A DNA stretch of 64,000 bases from Odontesthes bonariensis (lineage: Eukaryota; Chordata; Actinopteri; Atheriniformes; Atherinopsidae): NCBI RefSeq assembly GCF_027942865.1, contig NC_134526.1, positions 6,761,284-6,825,283 of the forward strand, given 5' to 3'. Both the position numbers and the translations under genes were made by a program. Under the pieces are notes generated by a model, which saw nothing but the letters and a program-made list of their open reading frames with translations, did no database searches and was not told the DNA's origin. Below are positions 2,472 to 19,700 of this stretch, one piece after another (within the stretch, counting starts at the first letter, position 1; each line of letters starts with the position of its first letter).

Positions 2472-4732
2472 CTTGATTACATCTGTGTATATCTCGTTTA
2501 CATGTGAGTTTGTTATATTGCTTTTTTTGACCCTTCTTTTTATAATTTTCTATGCATTTGTTACCATTGAAGCAGTGCATCAAAGTGACACAGGGAAAGT
2601 CATATGGATGTGTTTTTTTTAAACTGTTACGTCTTTAATCGAAACCTGCTTTAATTAAATCACTTCATTATTTATCACTCCCTTTCTCTGCTGGCATACA
2701 TTTTGATTACCTCCCATTTTTATCATTTCATTTCACCTCCACCCCTCATGCACTTTAAGCTTTGGGGGCGCGTGAAGCTAGCTGATCCGAGGAACGAGTT
2801 TAGCAGGTTTGCTTTACATGTTTTATTGGGGAAAATACTGCAGGATGTTGGGAGTGTGCATGTAGAACTGGGCAGAGGACTCAGGCAAATGTTTTCATTA
2901 AAACACAGCAGAACAGCGTGGTTGCTAACCAGCCAGCTTTCAGGAATTTAACCAGCTGATGAGGTGGCTGTCAACCAGATTTTCTGCTGGAGGCAATGAA
3001 AAGAAAACACCATTTCGCTCTGTGGCCTGAAAACTTTAAGACGCAAACATAAGCGCGCCTCAGTGTGAGTAAAGCTTGTTGTTGATGTGCGTGCATGCCC
3101 AAACTTGCAGACTTGTGTATTCACTTGTGCAGCTATGGGTAGATTTTCAGATGAAGAAGGCAGAAAATAAATGAACATGTTTAGCGATACCTAGTCAGTG
3201 CAAAAAGTTGAAGCAGGGAGTTGAGTCAGAGCCAGTTAAGGCTGTTTGGGCAGCTTAGCGTGGTCAATGACCTGCAGCTAATCGGGCCCTTGTGCTTCTT
3301 GTGGGAATGCCTTGCATGTGGCCACAGCTTGGAAAAACAGGCTTGTTATGGATGGAGGTCTGGTAGGGGGATTTCTTTGTGTTCGGCCTCGATGGGGCGA
3401 AACCCAATGGATGCAGGGAGGGGAGATGAGAGCAGTGTCTGTGTGCTGTAGCTTCGGGGGCCCCGCGAGGAACTCTATTATCCGTTTGGCACTGACAGTA
3501 TGAAGACTGTGATGTGAGGGAAGGGAAAAAAGGGAAAAAAGTAGCGCCAACTGTGTCTGGACAAATCTGTGAGCAGGTGAGCAGAAGAGACTAAACCCTG
3601 CAGAGTAATTTGGGGAGTGAGAGCCTGTTTGGGCCTCTTCTTTGAAATCTCTGTGAGAGCTCGCTCTTTATCCTAAAAGAAGCACTGAAGCGCGGCTGAA
3701 CGTCCATTAACACTGCTTCTTTACAGCATTTGTTGCATTTTTTTTTTAAAGATGTTTTGGAGCCACTTGCAAGATGCAGATTCTTGACTGAACTTTTTAA
3801 AACTTGCACCAAAATTTAGTATTATATGAACCAATCTGAAAAAGAGCCTTTTCATTAAAAAATTTGCACAATTTCAGCCATATACAAATGTCCTCTCCAC
3901 AGTATTGGATTGCTGTGGATTTGCCATATTTGAACCTTTGGAATGACATCTGAGAAACTGCTGTGTAAATACTGGATCCAGCATGGACCAGCTGTCTGAA
4001 CTCATCCTAATCTTTGGACCAGACATACTGGTATTGATTTTGACATTACTTTTTGTTATTAGTCAATACTGCTCATCCAACCAATATTCAAAAGGGAAAA
4101 TGTGCTCTGTGGCGTCATTTTGATTGATTTTTCTTTCTTTTAGACCTTATTTTGACATAATTTATTTCCCAAACCAGTGGCCTTGTTGTTCCTTGTTGAA
4201 TAAAAAGCGTTTGGAGGACGATTGTGAAAGAAACGACCACTTTCTAACCCTGAGAAATAAACCTACAAATGATGGCGACTGAGTTTTATTGCAACAATAG
4301 ATTTCTCTCCTCTTTTTCTTTTAAACCTGTGCATTTTTCATTATTATAATGTCTAGACTTGAGCAAAGATTGACTTTGTTAAAGCATACAGCCACTTTTC
4401 AAGACTCAGTTCCCTCCACAGATTGGTCTGAAGCGTTGGTAATTTCCTCCAAGGTTTGTTTAGAGAACACAACCTGCAGTTTAGAGTGTAAGCAGAGAGG
4501 TTGGGACTGTATTTATGAGGTCAACCCGTCAAAAGCAAGTTCTGCTTGAGGGTTTTTACTGTGGCTGAATCAGGGTTAGTCATTGCAAAAGTGATTATAA
4601 AGTTTGGTGAAGTGTCACTTGAATCACTAAACTCACAAATTACTTTTTGGGAAAACAGATTATATTTATGGAGAGAAAACTGCAGAAATGGCCTAAACAC
4701 ATTGCTCGTGTGCCTTCTCAAGGGCTTCTGGA
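2472..4732. other. plcd3 intron 1, remaining sequence
   Basis: No gene or clear repeat recognised. Short open frames in this stretch lack homology and codon structure. The intron ends at TTCTCAAG before exon 2. Confidence 0.5.
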
Positions 4733-7700
4733 CAATGAGGACATCCGTGTGATGATGCAGGGCTCCAGCATGGTGAAAGTTCGCTCTTCCAGGTGGCAGA
4801 AGAACCGAAACATGCGGCTGCTGGAGGACGGGCTGACCGTGTGGTGCGAGTCCACCAAGAGCTCCCGCAAAGCCAAATCCCAGCAGACATGTAAGTGCTC
4901 AAAGTGTGTGTGTTTGTGTGTGTGGGGGGGGGCTGGTTTCCAAGAAGTAATCATCAAAAGGAAGGATTTGATGTTGAAAACAAAACAGACAATGAGCAAA
5001 GAGGAAAAGGAAGCTATTGCAAATAAGGGGAAAGCTCTAAGACTGAACGTGCTCCGAAATGGGAAGTCCTCTCCTGGAGCGAAAGGGAAGGAAAACTCAA
5101 CTGATTTCAGATAAACAGAAAAGCAAAAGAAACTTAGATCCAAGGAAGTGGTGTACCAGCTTTCCTCCGGCCCAGTACAAGCTGAGACGTGAGTCACCGC
5201 GCTCAATGAGTTTGTATGTTGTTGAGCTGTTTTATCTTGGCTTCCTATCAGGCCCTAACCCTCCTCTTTGCCTCATTGGAGGGCTCGCTTGTTTCTCCTT
5301 TAGCTCCAAAGCTAATCGTGGGCTCTGCACCGTGGCTGAATAAATGCATGCTCTTATCGTATTCTGCCAGATTCAAAACAAATTTAAAAACTACTTGAAA
5401 CTGCCTCCGCGATTGTTTGGCTTGAGGTCAGGTGGAAAACTTTCCCTTGAAATAATTATCAAGCATTTTGAAGGGAGGCTCCTCAGAGGAAGCGCGTGAC
5501 TTTTTCAGAAGTAGAGGTTGAAGAATCCGTCTTTTGTTCCGTTTTCCAGCTGCTTTCCAGCTAAGAAAAAAGGTAAACAATGCACTCGTGAGACAGAAGT
5601 GGGTTTAATTGGCTGCGTAACAGCAGGTAACTGAGACCAAAACCAAAGGTTGTTGGAAACCAGCACAGCTTCCACACCTGCCTGTCAAATCTCAGTCAGC
5701 CTTAGTATTTAGAGCATCATCTTTTAGATCGATAATTAAGTTATAAATGCATATCTACTCTCAGTATGTGGGGAAAGAGTTGCAGCATGCAGAAGGAGGG
5801 TACCAAAGTCTTTGATGGGGTTATTCGGGGAACCAATGTGAGGATGTCAGTACAGTATGTAGGGCACATCTTGTTAGAGCTCACTCGCTGGCTGTCCTAT
5901 CACAGCATCTCAGAGGAAGTGATGGCCTAAATTACACCAACACAAACGCTCGGCACTGTGAATGAAATTGGAAGACAAAGACTTTAAATACGATTGTTTT
6001 CTAAAGAAAATATTTCTCTTCAGAATAAAATGTGCAGTACACTGGAAAAAAAATCTAAATTTTACCAAGTATATTTGTCTCATTGAGTATCTCATTACAC
6101 TCGATACAAGACACAATTGCCTAACAAGTACCATTTCAGCCAGATATAGGGACTTGTTTTAATACAATACATCTGGAATATCTTGTTAAGTGAAAAAATC
6201 TTGAAAACATCTTGTTTTGAGTCGTATTTCACATGAAACAAGCTTTTTTTTTCATTTGAAGAGGTTTTTAAGCTAATTTCAAGATCACTTTTAACTCAAA
6301 AGTCCCAAATATCACATCTTATTTCAAGAAATCTTGACAAGCCGATTTTCACTAGTTCCATTGGCAGATTTTTTTTGCTTATTTCAAGCAAAAACGTCTT
6401 GTATTTGCTGTTTTTTTACTTATTTTTTGGGAGGGGCATTTTTTTCCAGTGTACTGCAGCTCCAGGTGGAAAAGTGTCAGCTGACGTGGTTGAGAACAAT
6501 GTCTCCCGCTGTGTTTTACCATCTTTTCTCTGACCTTTGGCTCTCCCACCTCTGCTCTGTTTTTTACGCTGATGCCGGAATTCGGTTTGATGTTAACCGT
6601 CTGCTAGACTTACAGAGCCGGGAGATGGGCAGGTTTCAGCCAGAAATAGATGGTTGAGCGGCCCGGGTTGTAACTCTCCCTATGACGATGACAACAAGCT
6701 GTGTGCTAATCACCTCAGAGGACAGATACCGATAGTGCCCCACCAGCGAGCTGCAGAGGACCAGATCTGTGAGTGTCTGTGAGCTCAGGATGAAGGCTTG
6801 GCTCGATTCCTCTTTTCCGAACTCCAGGCGCCTCTCCAGATCCAGCTTGATCTGGTGCCTGCAGTTGTGCAACGTTGTCTCTTACGCTCAAAAGCACTTG
6901 GCATACAATGCGCCACCTAAAACTTATTTTCCACTCCACGCATGCACACACACATGTATGTCACTTTTGCCACGTCTCCGGGATAACCACAAAGGAGGAA
7001 TGCGGAGTCATTTAGAAGAGGTGGAGAGCAGAGGCTTTTATGGCCTCCAGCGAGAGAATGAGGCTATTGTCAGGACAGACACAGCTGAGTGATCATCACA
7101 CTGTAGGCTTCTTGCTGCAGATATAGAGGAGCTCCTGTGCTGAATGAACGTGTTGTCTTAGAAACAGCTGGAAGCTCCTTAGTCTGTTTCACCAGAGTTC
7201 TGCAAACATGAGGTTTAAAGGTCATTTGCAGCTGTAAATCTGAACCTAGACATGCAGCATTTTCAGGTTAAGAGAGGGAGGGTGGAACCGAAAGTGATTA
7301 TCGCTTCATATTAATGTGCACGCTTCATTACCTCGTATAAATAGGCCATGAAAAGTGTTTCAGCTGTTTCAGATGGATGTGATGCTCTTGAAAAAAAGGT
7401 TAAACTACCAAGGTATAGGCAAGGCAAGGCAAGTTTATCTGTGCAGCACAATTCAACAACAAGGCGATTCAAAGTGCTTTACAGATACATTAAAACAGTA
7501 GAAATAAAAAGCATGATTTAAATTTTAAACAAAAAAGAAAGAAATAAGAACAATAGATAAAATCAGATAAAATCAGATTAAGTTTTGAAACTCAAGCTTC
7601 AGATTTGGAGCTTTATTCAAATGCAGCTGAAAATAGGTGTGTCTTAAACACACTGAGTGTTTCAGCTGATCTGAGGCTTTCTGGGAGTTTGTTCCAGACA

Positions 7701-10700
7701 TGTGGAGCATAGAAGCTGAATGCAGCTTCTCCATGTCTGGTTCTGACTCTGGGAACTGATAGAAGACCGGATCCAGATGACCTGAGGGGTCTGGAAGGTT
7801 CATCCTGGGTCAGGAGGTCCCTGATGTGTTCTGGTCCTGGACCATTCAGAGCTTTACAGGGCTCTAGACTAACTTTTTGCACTGGTTGCACTGGTGCGCC
7901 CAACTTTTTTCAAACGCATTGCATTTAACACCGCAGTTTTACAGGTTCACTTTTTTTATTTATCTATTTTTTAAATCGCTGTCCATATAGGCAATATTGA
8001 CTTGTAAACGATTAACAGATAACTAGCTATCTGGTCAAAATAAAGTTCTATATTTGAAGCACAATTCTAAAAACTTACTGAACTTAACTTAATAATAATA
8101 ATAATAACACATTTAATTTTAAAAAACGCCTTTCTCAACGCTCAAGGACACTTTACAACACATTAAAAACACAATAAATAAAATAACACAAGTTAAAAAA
8201 GAGGCTAGAGGGAGAATGCAGCTTGAAACAGATGGGTTTTGAGTTTTGATTTGAAGAGGGGTAAAGAGTCAATGTTGCGGATGTCTTGTGGGAGTCAGTT
8301 CCAGAGGGCACAGAGAGGTGGAGGGAGGATGACCTGAGGGAGCGAGATGGGATGACAATGGAGAGGAGATCAGACAGATATGGGGGGGCGAGGTTGTGGA
8401 TGGCCTTGAATGTGTAAAGTAGGGTTTTGAAAGTAATTCTGAATTTGACCGGGAGCCAGTGAAGCTGCTGGAGGACGGGGGTGATATGGTGAAAGGAGGG
8501 GGTACTGGTGATGACGCGGGCTGCAGAGTTTTGAACCAGTTGAAGCTTATGAAGGGATTTGTGAGGGACAGCGAAAAGGAGTGAGTTGCAATAATAAAAA
8601 GGAGTTCCGTTTTATCACTGTTGAGTTTAAGGAAGTTTGCGGTGAACCAGGATTTAATCTCAGAGAGGCAGTGGGTGAGGGAGGAGGGAGGGAGACTGGC
8701 GCCAGGTTTACTGGACAGATAGAGCTGGGTGTCATCCGCGAAGCAGTGGAAATGTATAACAGATTTTCGAAAAATATTGCCAAGTGGGAGGAGGTAGATG
8801 ATAAAGAGGAAGGGCCCCAGAACGGAGCCCTGGGGAACACCTGAAGTGACAGGGGAGGGCTGAGAGGAGAAGGACTTGAGCTGTATGAACTGAGTGCGGC
8901 CTGTGAGGTAGGAGTGAAACCAGTGCAGGGGGGTGCTGGTGATGCCTAAGGAGGAGAGTCTATTGAGGAGGATGGGGTGAGAAATGGTGTCAAAGGCTGC
9001 ACTTAGATCGAGGAGGATGAGAATGGAGATGAAACCGGAGTCAGCTGCCATGAGGAGGTCGTTGGTGATCTTGATAAGGGCTGTTTCTGTGCTGTGGCAT
9101 GGACGGAAACCAGACTGGAATTGTTCATGAAGGCTGTAATTGGTGAGATGGGAATGAAGTTGGGAAGCAACATTTTTTTCCAGGATTTTGGAGATGAAAG
9201 GAAGGTGAGAAATGGGGCGGACGTTATTGAAATCGTTGGGGTCTGAACCAGGTTTTTTCAAGAAGGGACTGACAGCTGCAGACTTGAAGAGAGCGGGAGC
9301 AATTTTTCAAATTGAAAGTCTGATTTTGATGCTGTAAAAATTCAATATTAGAAATTCGTATTCAAACTCTGATGGCACAGAAAAACTTCCATACACGTAG
9401 ACTCTTTTTTTTTTTTTTTTCGGGTGGTTGCACCTGTGCGACCTCAGACTTTTTTTAGTTGCACCATTGAGAAACTAGGTCGCATGTGCCACCAAATTGG
9501 TCGCACTCTAGAGCCCTGCTTTATAGACCATGTATAAAGCGATATCTGACATTGTGTGGGGAAGAAGAGATTACTGCAAAAGTAAGAGCGATTCTACCTG
9601 AAGCTACGAAGAACGCATCATCATCCAGCGCCACCATAGTTCATAGCTGCAACATATCCAGACGTGGCTACGGTAACGCAGACTGAAACGCGACCACAAC
9701 TGAAAAAGATTTGCAGGTTGGAGCATCGAGATTGGGCCAAATAATACCTGAACCCAGATTTCTCAAAGGTTACAAGGACCGATAGAAAGAGACAGCTGGG
9801 CTTGTGGCTGGATCGATGGTTTTTACAGCGTGCCACATCCAGTTCGGCCCCAGCAGGGCGGAGAAGGGGTGCTGTGTGGGTTACCAACATCACAGAAGAA
9901 CCAGGTGGACTTTTTGAGCTGAAACATGCCGCTTGTTCCCAGGAATGTATTTTTATTGATGTTGTATTATTGTTGGACAATGTTCCATCTCTTGACTGAC
10001 GTAAATCACATATAGATAGCCTTTAGATTCTTTTGTAAGATTTAAAGTTCGGGGAGACGATAGACTTTACAGAAAACCACTTGAGAAGCTGACAGATTGA
10101 GAAACTGGCATCATCAACTGGCTGTGACTCGTGTGTTATTTGTGTGTGTGTTAAAATGATCCCGTTCAGAAGCATGCCAAGGTCTCAGTTTGTAACATTT
10201 TACAATCTCTTTGCTGCGTCCCTGTGGTATTTATGGTTTATTTATGATTCCCTGAAAACACCTCAGGCCTGACCTTTAGCTGTTGTTATGATCTCCCCCT
10301 GAAGCACACAAGCTGAGCTCTCCTTCCCTTTCTCCTCCAGTCGCAGTGACAGAGGTGGAGTGTGTGCGGGAGGGCTGCCAGTCGGAGGCACTGAGGCGAC
10401 TGTCCGGGTCGGTGCCCGATAACCGCTGTTTCACGGTGGTCTTCAGAGGGGCCAGGAAGAGCCTGGACCTGCTGTCCCCCAGTCCAGAGGAATGCCAGCG
10501 CTGGGTGCGAGGGCTCCGCTTCTTGAAGGAGCGCGTGGCCAACATGACGCAGAAGGAAAAACTGGACCAATATCCTGATGAATTTCCAGTGTGCTAGAAC
10601 AAATATAGTGTAGCTGAGGTAGCATTGCTATGGTGACTGGCTCCGCTGTCACATGTGCCGTCCCACGTCTGGAACATAGCTTAGGTGAGCAGTAAGATTA

Positions 10701-13700
10701 CATAAAAAAGCAACGTCTAAATATAGTCCAACTATCACTGTTAATTGCAATCCCTCATAGGCAGAAGTATCAGATGAATGTATCAGATACATGTCCATCC
10801 CTTCCCATTTTCCCTCTAACACTGGAAAAAATGCCCCTCCAAAAATAAGTAAAAAAACAACAAATAAAAGACATTTTTGCTTGAAATAAGCCAAAAAAAT
10901 CTGCCAATAGAAATAGTGAAAATCGGCTTGTCGAGATTTCTTGAAATAAGATGTGATATTTAGGACTTTTGAGATAAAAGTGATCTCGAAATTAGCTTAA
11001 AAACCTCTTCAAATGAAAAAAAAAAGCTTTTTTCATGTGATATGTGACTCAAAACAAGATGTTTTCAAGACTTTTTCACTTAACAAGATATTCCAGATGT
11101 ATTGTATTAAAACAAGTCCCTATATCTGGCTGAAATGGTACTTGTTAGGCAATTGTGTCTTATATCGAGTGTAATGAGATACTCAATGAGACAAATATAC
11201 TTGGTAAGATTTAGATTTTTTTCCAGTGTATGGGGATAACTTTGCAGTATGGAAAGTGGAGAAGTGATTATAGTCACCAAAAACTATTTCCTGCACTTGT
11301 GAACAACAACTTTAACATTACAGGCTACAGAAATCTCTTAGATAGGCAGAAAAGGGGGAAAAAAGAAGGAAACCTTCCTCATCTGAGGCAAATAGTCAGT
11401 TACAAGCCGTTTGAAAGCCAGTAAAAAAACAACGCTACATGATAGATCCACACCAGGAAGCGTAACTCGGTGATAATGCTTGGAATCAAATGCTGCCTCG
11501 CTGTCTGACTCTATATTTCAGCCATGGTTTTTCTCTTAACTCCCCACAATTGGATTCGTGGCTACCTGAGGCGAGCGGATCAGAACCAGGACGGCAAGAT
11601 GAGCTACGACGAGGTCAAACAGCTTCTGCAGATGATCAACATTGACCTGAGTGAGCAGTACGCCCGCTCTTTATTCAAGGTCAGGGTCACGTGAAACCTG
11701 GATTTATGTCCTTATTATTAAGAATACCTGATTTCTGCAGGAGTGTAATAAAAAGCAGGGCAGTGCAAACACAGAAGTGTCAAGTTGGTTATGTCTAGTT
11801 AGTGTGGTATTACTTTCCCCTGACACCATGAAGTCCTGAGCCTGTGTTCAATTACAGACCCAGCAGCAAGCCAACCACCAGCTCCCCTCTCCTTCTTCAC
11901 CCCCCCTCATCTTCCCCACAACACACGAAGAGGCATTTGTTTCTTTATTGAGGGGGATTTTTTTTATTTGATTTATTTATTTATTTTTATTGCATAATTG
12001 AACGTAACATATACACAGGAAAATATTCCATCACAATAGGACAAAAGGTAGTTACAAAAATAAAAGATATTTCACCATTTTAAATTTGAAATCCATAAAC
12101 AAAATAAGTAAAAGAAAAAATTAATAATAATGAAAAATAAATAAATAATAATAAAAATAAAAGAAATAAGTAAAATAAAAGAGCTCGAGGTATATGAGGT
12201 TTGGATGCTGGTGTGTAAATTTAGTGCAATGAATATGTAATTTAGCAAATATTAAAAGAAGGTTGATGATATAAAATTTTCCTGGATTTCTTTCCTCATT
12301 TTGTGTCAGACCAAATAAAACGTGCTGGATGTTCAGTTTGTAATAGAAGTCAATTTTGTTGTTTACAAAATATATTTAGGTCAATCCAAAAGTCATGAGA
12401 ATAGGTGCAATCCCAAAATAAATGATGAATTATTGTTTCATCTACATTACCTACATTAAAGGAACAGTATGTGTCAATATTGATCTTGTATTTTACAAGA
12501 AGAGTCTTGACTGGGTAACATCTGTGGAGCAATTTAAATGTAACTTCTCGTACCTTATTTGTAATAAAAAAAATTCCTTGACAAGATCTTATTGAGGGGG
12601 ATCACTGCCTGCTATGTCCCACAAATCTGTCATAGCCGACGAGTTGGTTTACAGTTCCTCCACTTGCAGTTTCCAACCCCGACCCTCCTCACAGAGCTAT
12701 GTTTTTAAAGTGTGCACAGCTGTGTTGACTTACCATGAAAATGTTTTCCCCGGGGGGAATTTAAAGCACTCCCAAAACAAATCCATACTGCGTTTAATAT
12801 TTGGCTATTTCCCCGGCTGCGTGTGTTTGTTTGCGTATCTTTATTGACTCGTGCCCCTCCCTTGAATTCCAGCGGTGTGACAGATCTGGTGATGGCCGCC
12901 TAGATCACACGGAGACCGAGGAGTTCTGCAGGGAGCTGCTGCGGCGGCCTGAGCTGGATGCTGTCTTCAGACACTATTCGAGCAATGGTTGTGTGCTCTC
13001 CACTGCGGAGCTGCGCGACTTCCTGGGAGATCAGGGAGAAGACGCCTCCCTGAACCACGCTCAGACTCTGATACTCACGTATGAGCTCAACGACTGGGGT
13101 AAGTCCCCTATAAGCAGTCATTAAAGGACAGAAGAGGAGAATCTGTTGTATTTTCATATAAACACGATGTGAATGGGCTGTTACACTGGAAAAAATGCCC
13201 CTCCAAAAATAAGTTAAAAAAAAACAACAAATAAAAGACGTTTTTGCTTGAAATAAGCAAAAAAATCTGCCAATGGAACTAGTGAAAATCGGCTTGTCAA
13301 GATTTCTTGAAATAAAATGTGATATTTAGGACTTTTGAGATAAAAGTGATCTTGAAATTAGCTTAAAAACCTCTTCAAATGTAAAAAAAAGCTTGTTTCA
13401 TATGATATGTGACTCAAAAGAATTTGTTTTCAAGACTTTTTCATTTAACAAGATATTCCAGATGTATTGTCTTCCAACAAGTCCCTATATCTGGCTGAAA
13501 TAGTACTTGTTAGGCAGTTGTGTCTTATATTAAGTGTAATGAGATATTTTGACTAGAAATGAGACAAATATACTTGGTAAGACTTTGATTTTTTCCAGTG
13601 TACCTGATGATAAAGCAGTGATTTAGTCTATCACAGTAAACATGTTTGCCCCACTTTAACTCCAGGGCTCATTTTATTATCTCTCCTCACTGTGAATAAT

Positions 13701-16700
13701 AAAAAACAAAAGATAAGATACTGTATTAAAAGCATGAAAACAAGCCGGGAAACAGTTTCCTTAAAATGGACGCTGGATTTTAAAATAGAGGTTTGACGAC
13801 TGATGTGAAATTTGATGCAGGAACACCATAACAATGATAGATAACAGTTTGATGGAACGTTTATTGCAGCTCAGAGGAACCTATTTATGACTCAGAACGG
13901 TTTCACCATGTACATGCTGTCTCGGGAAAATGATATCCTCAACCCTGACCATGCCAGAGTCTACCAGGACATGAGTCGCCCTTTGGCGCACTACTTAATC
14001 TCCTCGTCCCACAACACTTACCTCACCAAAGACCAGGTGACCAGCGCCAGCAGCACTGAGCCGTACATCAGGTACGCAGACCGAGGAACGTCACCGAGCA
14101 GCTCATCTTAAACCACAAAGCGCACTGAAAACGCCCTACAAGATTTTCCTGTGTGTGTCACCGTCAGGGCTCTGAATCAGGGCTGTCGCTGCGTGGAGCT
14201 GGACTGCTGGGATGGAGATAAAGGTGAACCTGTCATCTACCACGGCCACACCCTAACCTCCAAAATTCCCTTCAAGGAGGTCATCGAAACCATCGCCCAG
14301 TATGCCTTCAAAGTACGAGACGCTGCCTTCCCCTAACAGTTCCTTCTCACTGACCTCCAGCTTTCAATCAGGTTCACTGTGTACAAAAATGTACTTTTGT
14401 GGGAATCTGCAGATCTTGGGGATTCCAAAAAACCAATGTTGCCACTTGCAACAGACACCTGTATGGCGGCCATTTTGGAATTTCAAAACGGGCGCCATAA
14501 AATACAGATTTTCAGCTACCTTGGCCTCTAAACAACCTAAAAACTCAATTTAACATATTTCAGTGTATTGCACTTCCTGTAATCGCATGCTTTGCATCTT
14601 GGTCGACACACTTAAGGATTACCCAGCTTAAAGGGATAGTTTGCCTCTTTTGACATGAAGCTGTGTGACATCCCATATTAGCAATATCATTTCTGAACAT
14701 CTTCTTACCCCCTGCTGCGTCCTGTGAGCAGAGTTCCAGCCTCGTTTTGGCGTTGATGAAGGTAGTCCGGCTAGTTGGCTGGGGTTTAAAAAATAAAGCG
14801 TCTTGCTTCTCAAAACAATATGCGTTCAAAAGAGTAATACATTTGCATCACAAAATCGTTCTCCAGGAAAAAGTCAGACCTCACGCCTCCTCCCATATAT
14901 CTTGAGAATGACAGCATACGTACAGAGGATAATCTCATTAGTGTCCAAGAGGGGAGAGAGGCCAAGCACTGCGCTGCATGTGCAACCCCATTGCCCCATT
15001 TTCTCTCCTTTCGTATCACTGCCTGCTGTGCAGACCGAAGTGCAGACCGAGCAGCAAACACCGTAACAGGTGCGGCTGTCGGCAGGCGGCAGCAGGCAGT
15101 GATACAAAGGGAGAGAAAATAGGGCCAAGCGATTGTGAGGTCTGACTTTTTCTTGGAGAACAATTTTGTGATGCAAATGTATTACTCTTTTGAACGCATA
15201 TTGTTTTGAGAAGCAAGACGCTTTATTTTTTAAGCCCCAGCCAACTAGCCGCACTACCTTCGTCAACGCCAAAACGAGGCTGGAACTCTGCTCACAGGAC
15301 GCAGCAGGGGGTAAGAAGATGTTCATAAATGATGTTGCTAATATGGGATGTCATAGAGCTTCATGTCAAAAGAGGCGAACTATCCCTTTAAGAGTTTCCC
15401 TGTGACTTTCCCTGCAGGCGTCCCCGTACCCTCTGATCCTGTCCTTGGAGAACCACTGTTCGGTGGAGCAGCAGGCTGTCATGGCCAAACACCTCCGCAC
15501 CATTCTGGGCAGGAAATTGCTCACCAAGCCTCTGAGTGACCTTCCACTGAAAGAGCTGCCTTCTCCTGAGGTGCCCGCACACTCACACACAAACAGCTGG
15601 GCCCTCTTTTAAAGTCCTCTGGGTTTGCTAATGAGGTCATTTGTTCCAATGAACTCCCTTGCAGGAGCTTAAGGGGCGTATTCTGGTAAAGGGGAAGAAG
15701 CACACTCCTCACCTGGCTGAGCTGAGCAAGAACGGAAGCTTTGCCAGCTTCTCTTCCAGCTCTGAGGATGAAACGGCGAGCAGCAACAAGAACACGCCCA
15801 AAAAGGATCCCGCAAAGGTAAAAACAGAGAGACTGGTTCAGTCTGAGATGCAGTTAGTGCAAGCATTTCATTTTGTTGAATGTTTCCTGTCCCAGGTGTG
15901 CTCCAAGCTGAGTCCCGAGCTGTCGGAGCTGGTGGTGTACTGCAGGAGTGTCCCCTTCCGAGGGTTCGAAAACCTGTCGAAAATATTACCAAATGAGATG
16001 TCTTCCTTCTCTGAAAGTGACGCTCTCAGGCTTATCAAAGACTCCGGTACAACAAAGGAAATAACTGCATCTATACAAAAGGAACCCATAGATTTCAGAA
16101 TTCAAGGCTTTTATGCAACTTGATGTTGCAACTTGAATGTGTCATCAGCCTCCAGTGTATCATCGCCTGCTGTTTTCTCTCTTTTCATTTGCAGGGAAGC
16201 TTTTTGTGAGACACAACAGCAGGCAGCTGAGCCGGATCTACCCCTCTGGCCAGCGCCTGCAATCATCCAACTATGATCCTCAGGAAATGTGGAACGGCGG
16301 CTGCCAGATGGGTTGGTACTCCACACTAGACGTTAGGATGCTGCTCAGATTGTAGCAAATTATGCCTGTTTGTGAGAAAAGAAAAGTGGTTAGTAAGCAC
16401 AAAAAAAAAAAGAACTGCCTCTCACTTCTGCAGATTCCTCCTGATGTTTCTGTTACTGACTCACTGCATGTGATGTCTGAGTTCTGTGGGGAACGGTTGT
16501 GTGTGGGCGTGTGCTGACTTGGCCGTGGTTCTGACTTTGCTCTCGTTGCTGTTCAGTGGCTCTGAACTTCCAGACACCTGGGGAGCAGATGGACCTCAAC
16601 CAGGGCCGCTTTCTCCCAAACGGCCGCTGCGGATACATCCTCAAACCCAGCTTCTTGTGCAGCTCTACATCCAGCTTTAATCCGGAGAACACGGGTGGAG

Positions 16701-19700
16701 GCCCTGGTCACACCCCCACCCAGCTGACTATTCGAGTGAGCTTTGACCTTCAATAACTCCAATACTGCAAGTCTATTGATTTCCAGGAAGAACGCTCTCT
16801 GTGTTTCCCTCTTTTTTTTTTACTTATTGCCATACTTAGGTGCTGTTTATCTATTTTGTTATTATTATAGTAATGTGTGTGATGGACAGTTATGTAATAC
16901 AACCTATTTCAATTTGAAGATGTTATCTGGTCCTTACCAGGTCTTAAAGGGGAACTGCGGTATTTTCAACATTAAGCCTCTTTTATGAGTCGTCTGCAAT
17001 GTTTTAGAACCCCCCCTCACCGCTTTTTTGATGTTTACTGCTGTCTCCGGTATTTGCCTAATTTTGATTCTTCTCAACCTGCTTCAGAACGGCAAGTCAT
17101 GTGCATGTCCAAAAAGGTCCGTAAAAGCACCATAAACGTCCGTTTTCAAAATAATCAACTCACCGGAGTGGTTACTGGTGTGCACTGGTAATCCATATCA
17201 AATTTCGTTGCGAAAAGTTGCTTCTGTCGTGTTTTATTTGACATTTTGTACTGGATGTTCATTGATATTACTCCGCCACTGCTAAGAAAATAGTTGGAGC
17301 ATGAACGAGCTGCCAAATAAAACACGACAGAAGCAACTTTTCGCCACGAAATTTGATATGGATTACCAGTGCACACCAGTAACCACTCCGGTGAGTTGAT
17401 TATTTTGAAAACGGACGTTTATGGTGCTTTTACGGACCTTTCTGGACATGCGCATGACTTGCCGTTCTGAAGCAGGTTGAGAAGAATCAAAATTAGGCAA
17501 ATACCGGAGACAGCAGTAAACATCAAAAAAGCGGTGAGGGGGGTTCTAAAACATTGCAGACGACTCATAAAAGAGGCTTAATGTTGAAAATACCGCAGTT
17601 ATCCTTTAAAATTAGGTAAAAACAATCTCAGATGAAGAACAACATGACATATTACAATGTGTTTGTCAGTATTGGTGGGTGAGAAGGACAGAGATGCGGA
17701 AATTCAAAAAGCAAACTAGATTTATTTTACAAAAACAAAGTAACAAACAAAAGGCGCGGCTGAGCCGGATAACAAAGAAACTTAAACTGTGGAATCAAAT
17801 GAAACATTAACAAGACTAGGAACAAAAACAACTTAGCATGGCATGGATAAATACATAACTTTGAAAGACTTGACGTGGCGTGACGTGGCGTGATGGTGCA
17901 TATGTATGGTGCATATGTATGGTGCATATGTATGGTGCATATGTATGGTGCATATGTATGGTGCATATGTATGGTGCATATGTACGGTGCATATGTACGG
18001 TGCATATGTATGGTGCATATGTATGGTGCATATGTATGGTGCATATGTATGGTGCATATGTATGGTGCATATGTATGGTGCATATGTACGGTGCATATGT
18101 ATGGTGCAAGGATCTCACAAAAACTGAAAGCAAACAGGGAACTTAAGTACTGTGGGGAACTGATGAGTGCAGCTGATGAGAATGAGTGCAGGTGTCGTGA
18201 ATGAAACTAATTGCAGGTAAACTAAAACATGGGAAAACTAAGAACTAAACTAAGACATGACTAAAACGTGATCTAAAACCAAACATGACCTAAAAACATA
18301 GTCCCATGACAGTGTTGTTATTCACCAGACAGAAACTAAGCCAAAATGCAGTCCATCCTCACTGCTTCCACGGGAATTAAGACTGTAAATGTATTTTATT
18401 TATACAGCCCTTTACAAAGAATCCTTACGGTGTACCAAAGTGCTTTACAGTGGGTAATAAATAAAAAGAGGAATAAGTAAAAACAAATAAAAACAATAAA
18501 GAAACAGTGAAAGCAATAAAATACAACAAAATCGAATAAGATAAAATAAGATAAAAGTGTCATCATACTACTGGGTATTAAAAGCAATCCTAAATAAAGT
18601 AAGTAAGTAGCAGCCGGGTACTTGCTTGATTATTTTATCATCAGTCAGTGTGAGCAGCTCTATAAAAGCAGAAGTTCTGCAGCATTCAGGTGTGTGTTAA
18701 CACGATGCCAAGGAGAAGCAGCTTTTGAGAAGCAGCTTTTGCTGCCCATCGACCTGGGAAGGGTTATGAGGCCATTTCCAAACTATCTGGAGTCCATCGT
18801 TCTACAGAGAGAAAGATTATTCACAGGTGGAAAACATTCAGGACAGCTGTCAATCTTCCCAGGAGTGGACGTCCTAGCAAGGTCACCCCAAGGTCAGAAA
18901 CCCAAGAGCTACATCTCAGACTCTGCAGGCCTCAGTTAGCATGTTAAAGGTTAAAGTTCATGACAGCACAGTTAGAAACAGACTGAACAAGTATGGCTGC
19001 AGGAGAAAGCCTCTTCTCTCTAAAAATAACATGGCAGCACAGCATAGGTTTGCAAAGCTGCATCTGAACAAACCACAAGACTTCTGGAACAATGTCCTTT
19101 GGACAGACCAGACCAAAGTGGAGATGTTTGCTCATAATGCACAGCAGCACGTTTGGAGGAAACCAAACACAGCATATCAGCTCGGCTGAAACTGGGTGAT
19201 ATAAGAGGACAGTGATCCAAACACAGCAGCAGATCTACGACAGAATGTGTGAAAAAGAAAAGAATCGAGGTGTTGCAACGGCTGGGTCAAAGTCCAGACT
19301 GAAATGCTGCGGTGGGACCTTGAGAGAGCTGTGCATAAACCGATGCTGCAAACCTCAATGAGCTGAAGCAGCGCTGTAAAAGAAGAGTGGGTCATAATTC
19401 CTCCACAAAGATGTGAGAGACTGATAACGTGAAACAGAAAAGGTTATATTTACCTCATTTCAAGACCTGGGAAGGACCGGATGCTTTTTTGTTTCTATAG
19501 TACATCCCTATACCAAAACCTCAGAACTGAAAGAGGGTGTACTTTCTTTTTCTCATGAGTGTACACACAAGGAGATATCTCTCTTTGCTAATTCCTGAAC
19601 GGATAAGAGAGGTTTCATGCTGCCGGGTTGTGAAGCCAAGGTTGGAGCTTTTTGAAATTGTGGGCTTTTTTTCGGGCTCCAGTTTGATTTTGTTGCATTT

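Follow-up and report, generated by a model that had tools for sequence, protein, structure and literature searches.

The window analysed here is a 64-kb stretch of the Odontesthes bonariensis genome (assembly GCF_027942865.1, contig NC_134526.1, positions 6,761,284-6,825,283 of the forward strand), and all coordinates below are window positions. It carries a plcd3 gene, which we modelled in part, as eleven exons (4721-16690) encoding 603 amino acids with no stop codon. The model spans the part between the first coding exons and the C2 region, and its two outermost exon borders are approximate. The predicted protein contains the PH, EF-hand, PLC-X and PLC-Y domains (Pfam), and its residues 124-601 match rat PLC-delta-1 (E 3e-152) with no gap at the junction studied here. 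Since the frame is open throughout, a decaying pseudogene is unlikely. Nine of the ten introns in the model are GT-AG, and the remaining one (10570-11549) is AT-AA. An open reading frame at about 27.2 kb matched the N-myristoyltransferase C-terminal domain (Pfam); a second piece, which we assigned to this gene, gave no hit in Pfam. Human PLCD3 and NMT1 are neighbours, an arrangement that fits the name plcd3.

The exon upstream of the AT-AA intron (10341..10569, forward strand) encodes the end of the PH domain (Pfam) and a linker, and ends in phase 2 after ...KEKLD CA. The downstream exon (11550..11679, forward strand) encodes the first EF hand, and its first residue is completed as H. The phase-2, U12-type intron between them (10570..11549, forward strand) is 980 nt long, starts with ATATCCTG, contains the branch-like motif CTCTTAAC and ends with CCCCACAA. 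The exact letters at the junction are ...CTGGACCA up to 10569 in the exon, ...TTTTTCTCTTAACTCCCCACAA up to 11549 in the intron and TTGGATTCGT from 11550 in the next exon, so that the two borders read ...AAACTGGACCA/ATATCCTGATG and TTTTTCTCTTAACTCCCCACAA/TTGGATTCGTGGC... The 5' splice site (10570..10577, forward strand) matches the U12-type [AG]TATCCTT (consensus ATATCCTT) at seven of eight positions, the mismatch being a G at +8, where all eight paralogs described below have T. The presumed branch site (11533..11540, forward strand) agrees with TCCTTRAC at six of eight positions; the U12-type branch consensus has been given as TCCTTAAC (PMC2831892). Its second A is 11539, which leaves 10 nt to the intron end, a distance at the margin of what is expected of such a motif, the published optimum being 11-13 nt (PMC3584512). 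Both signals are thus close to the minor-spliceosome consensus, with the branch ten nucleotides before the exon, as the original prediction had it. An AC lies directly upstream of the terminal AA (11546..11547 and 11548..11549, respectively, forward strand). Counted from the second A of TTAAC, the AC is 8 nt and the AA 10 nt away (9 and 11 nt from the first A).

The AA is the predicted 3' splice site, as the reading frame and the protein match both need it. Joining K L D CA to T TGG ATT CGT gives K L D H W I R, and the resulting KEKLDHWIRG aligns without a gap to rat PLC-delta-1 (KLDHWIRG versus KLQHWIHS). We examined seven AT-A? ends between 11526 and 11569, and the AA at 11549 alone restores KLDHWIRG, which bears out the earlier claim that only AT-AA recovers Asp-His-Trp. 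It had also been claimed that AT-AC would break the frame, and an intron ending with the AC at 11547 indeed puts the next exon out of frame, and translation stops a few codons later. An AT-AT intron ending at 11550 is likewise out of frame and reaches a stop, and the AA at 11539 and the AC at 11565 both run into stops. Two further ends keep the frame: an AT-AT end at 11555 loses the conserved W-I, and an AT-AC end at 11540 gives KLDH PHN WIR. The latter is unusable with CTCTTAAC as branch point, because the C of this end is also the final base of the motif.

The original prediction had set a GT-AG junction against its own reading. A canonical U2-type route could use, for example, the good-looking acceptor TATATTTCAG at 11521, from which the frame is open into the exon. 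We combined GT and GC donors at 10480-10679 with AG acceptors at 11440-11639 and obtained 48 in-frame, stop-free pairs, none of which (0/48) yields KLDHWIRG. The only pair that leaves both exons whole, a GC donor at 10593 joined to 11521, would replace one residue by 18 and has a poor donor. Moreover, the U12-type donor is retained by all eight paralogs found, and we regard a U2-type route as extremely improbable. The acceptor at 11521 lies 28 nt upstream of the exon start used by the U12-type intron and might serve as a cryptic site should minor splicing fail.

The motif [AG]TATCCT occurs nine times in the window over both strands (7.0e-5 per position), and [CT]{3}TTAAC stands some 7-14 nt before a randomly chosen point with a frequency of 0.0021. 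The product of these window frequencies puts the joint occurrence of donor and branch motifs at one given junction at about 1.5e-7. Judged from sequence comparison, the pair at the plcd3 junction is not due to chance, because the eight paralogous junctions found in the genome all bear an [AG]TATCCT donor at the same place; this homology is a stronger argument than motif frequency. The paralogs were identified by searching the exon 3' of the intron against the fish's own genome (945 Mb, 187 contigs; E up to 10). Ten candidates were scored, and nine matched: the window copy and eight paralogs, the weakest three with E values of 0.008-0.03, each with an open frame. By similarity we take L011 to be plcd3-like, L012 and L013 plcd4-like, L014 and L015 plcd1-like, and L016-L018 plch (eta)-like. 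Donors were located with the pattern [AG]TATC[CT]T, which gave a second, farther candidate in L017 only; there the near one was taken because the PLC-like protein continues across it.

Phase and codon position agree at all nine homologous junctions: the [AG]TATCCT donor follows "..CA", the phase-2 codon is completed by the single base in front of TGG (W), and the PLC-like protein is continuous. The donor is ATATCCTG in the window, ATATCCTT in L011, L016, L017 and L018, and GTATCCTT in L012-L015. The endings vary: AT-AC in four (L011, L016, L017 and L018), GT-AG in four (L012-L015) and AT-AA in the window copy, with none of the eight paralogs ending in AA. The window exon is 76% identical to that of L011 and 48% or less to those of the other paralogs. 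We take L011 as the closest paralog from this exon identity and not from a tree, since in the tree of the nine short sequences (77 columns) the fork with the window copy and L011 was not settled. On these comparisons, the intron is apparently an old U12-type intron of PLC genes, present in the delta-like and eta-like copies compared. The idea that U12 introns are known in phospholipase C genes also agrees with a report that 60% of these genes contain minor introns (PMC6865273).

The branch motifs within range matched TCCTTRAC at eight of eight positions in L011 (TCCTTGAC), seven in L013, L016 and L017, six in the window, L014, L015 and L018, and five in L012, whose best motif (6/8) was set aside as too far, at 37 nt. 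Counted from base seven of the motif, the end of the intron is 10 nt away in the window, the shortest distance among the nine junctions, followed by 11 nt in L012, 12 in L016, 13 in L013 and L015, 14 in L018, 15 in L017 and 16 in L011 and L014. In L012, L014 and L015, the sole adenosine is one base earlier (within TCCTTAC in L014 and L015), which adds 1 nt to each. Compared with L011, the window copy is weaker in all three signals (G at +8, 6/8 branch motif, AA end), and its branch motif is no weaker than those of L012, L014, L015 and L018 (5-6/8). The weaker signals might mean that the intron is spliced inefficiently, or that 11549 carries an error or a rare allele. Under the latter possibility the intron would be an ordinary AT-AC one (CCCCACAC), and a single C-to-A does separate such an ending from that of the window, with the closest paralog, L011, ending in AC. 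Against this, the contig containing the window measures 34 Mb, in an assembly of 187 contigs, which makes a base error unlikely a priori, and AT-AA ends are known elsewhere. We consider an error or rare allele very unlikely.

Taken together, the sequence, the frame, the protein alignment and the eight paralogous introns favour the predicted U12-type intron with AT-AA ends in plcd3 over the other readings. The interval 10570-11549 is very probably an old phase-2 U12-type intron that is cut after AA and whose ending derives from AT-AC. Sequence, frame, protein match and paralogous introns are the direct observations, whereas splicing at AA, the position of the branch point, the contacts with snRNAs and the direction in which the ending changed are inferred. 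In this mechanism, ATATCCTG would be recognised by U11 and U6atac, U12 would pair with the branch site CTCTTAAC, and the 3' cut would fall about 10 nt beyond the branch adenosine, following AA. The AC located 2 nt upstream is probably skipped as too near the branch point. The minor spliceosome tolerates any last base in introns that start with A (AT-AN); minor introns beginning with A have been reported to end in AN, with AC preferred (PMC4176328). Distance would then plausibly drive the cut beyond AC onto AA, and the frame would thereby be kept. The AA ending is presumably derived, probably by a one-base change from the AT-AC retained by L011. The most economical assumption is that AT-AC became AT-AA in the window copy, because the closest relative, L011, ends in AC and no paralog ends in AA; one C-to-A at 11549 could suffice. 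The original prediction spoke of a shifted 3' splice site, which does not hold: the exon boundary is at the codon position of the paralogs, and it is the last intron base that differs. Its description of AT-AA as a rare subtype also needs correction, since AT-AA is reported as the commonest non-canonical ending of minor introns in animals and plants (PMC10639083). The genome encodes U6atac (one match above the cut-off, 132 bits, compared with 0 of 14 control genomes matched), in a check of the minor spliceosome limited to this snRNA. Because A-type introns, including AT-AA ones, are reported to need CENATAC in human cells (PMC8280824), the plcd3 intron would be expected to be CENATAC-sensitive. 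A scan of the 64-kb window with Rfam gave no match at the gathering scores.

The proximity of the two dinucleotides raises the question of whether CACAA acts as a tandem 3' splice site, in addition to the mechanism above, with AT-AA giving the protein and a sizeable share of AT-AC giving a frameshifted transcript for decay. AC and AA are 2 nt apart, the AC product has a stop within a few codons, and in an AT-AC intron of SCN1A a mutation has been reported to create a new TAC acceptor 2 nt further upstream, with a resulting frameshift (PMC10853796). However, no more than 8 nt separate the AC from the presumed branch A, against motif distances of 11-16 nt in the eight paralogs and below the published optimum of 11-13 nt (PMC3584512). 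We find such dual use rather unlikely. Still more doubtful is the idea that the choice between AC (8 nt, leading to decay) and AA (10 nt, productive) tunes the amount of PLCD3, perhaps in a CENATAC-dependent manner.

The closest known counterparts are found in the same genome and in the literature. The AT-AC intron of L011 shares with the window intron its codon position, phase 2, an ATATCCT donor after GACCA and a U12 branch site, but it ends in AC and has TCCTTGAC 16 nt before its end, whereas the window copy ends in AA with CTCTTAAC 10 nt before. The U12-type introns of L012-L015 (PLC-delta-like) share position and phase and have an GTATCCTT donor; they differ in their G-type (GT-AG) ends and in a much shorter length (103-215 nt). 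The AT-AA and other AT-AN (A-type) minor introns known from animals and plants resemble that of the window in the AT donor start, the U12 branch site and a non-canonical last base (PMC10639083, PMC8280824, PMC4176328), and we found no difference from them except gene and species. Among the listed matches of a literature search on minor (U12-type) introns in genes for PLCD proteins or for phospholipase C in general, the plcd3 intron is undescribed, and a word search of the main texts of several papers gave no mention of PLC or PLCD. With the searches confined to such text, the intron may already be listed in a supplementary table or in U12DB.

The apparent AA ending is a genuine but modest curiosity, as such endings are already known, and the gain is modest because AT-AN tolerance and the distance effect have already been published. 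Its value lies in a natural pair: in one genome, the same old U12 intron has an AT-AC ending in one plcd3-like copy and an AT-AA ending in its counterpart, and the pair could be used to test whether the minor spliceosome gives branch distance more weight than the identity of the last base. Use of the competing AC 2 nt upstream is easily measured since it breaks the frame. The plcd3 junction would be misplaced by annotation software that accepts nothing but GT-AG or AT-AC. In L011-L018, the U12-type donor is kept in all eight while A-type and G-type ends are mixed, and this position offers a ready family for the study of minor-intron subtype switching.

The window also contains several repetitive elements. 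A MITE-like insertion (10819..11229, forward strand) accounts for 411 of the 980 nt of the U12-type intron and is bounded by 13-bp perfect terminal inverted repeats (ACACTGGAAAAAA and TTTTTTCCAGTGT). Its left end (21 nt) has three further copies in the window, at 13184, 58419 and 42007 (2 mismatches), and its right end has one, inexact. A LINE-like ORF is found on the reverse strand at 8269-9306, where a piece of 142 amino acids gives a hit to Pfam RVT_1 (E 3.6e-15). The forward strand at 18729-19186 may contain the remains of a Tc1/mariner-like transposase, in which a 49-amino-acid piece shows a weak similarity to the Sleeping Beauty HTH (25.6 bits against a curated cut-off of 43 bits). Finally, an ORF of repeated units on the reverse strand (17727-18206) is a tandem repeat read through.
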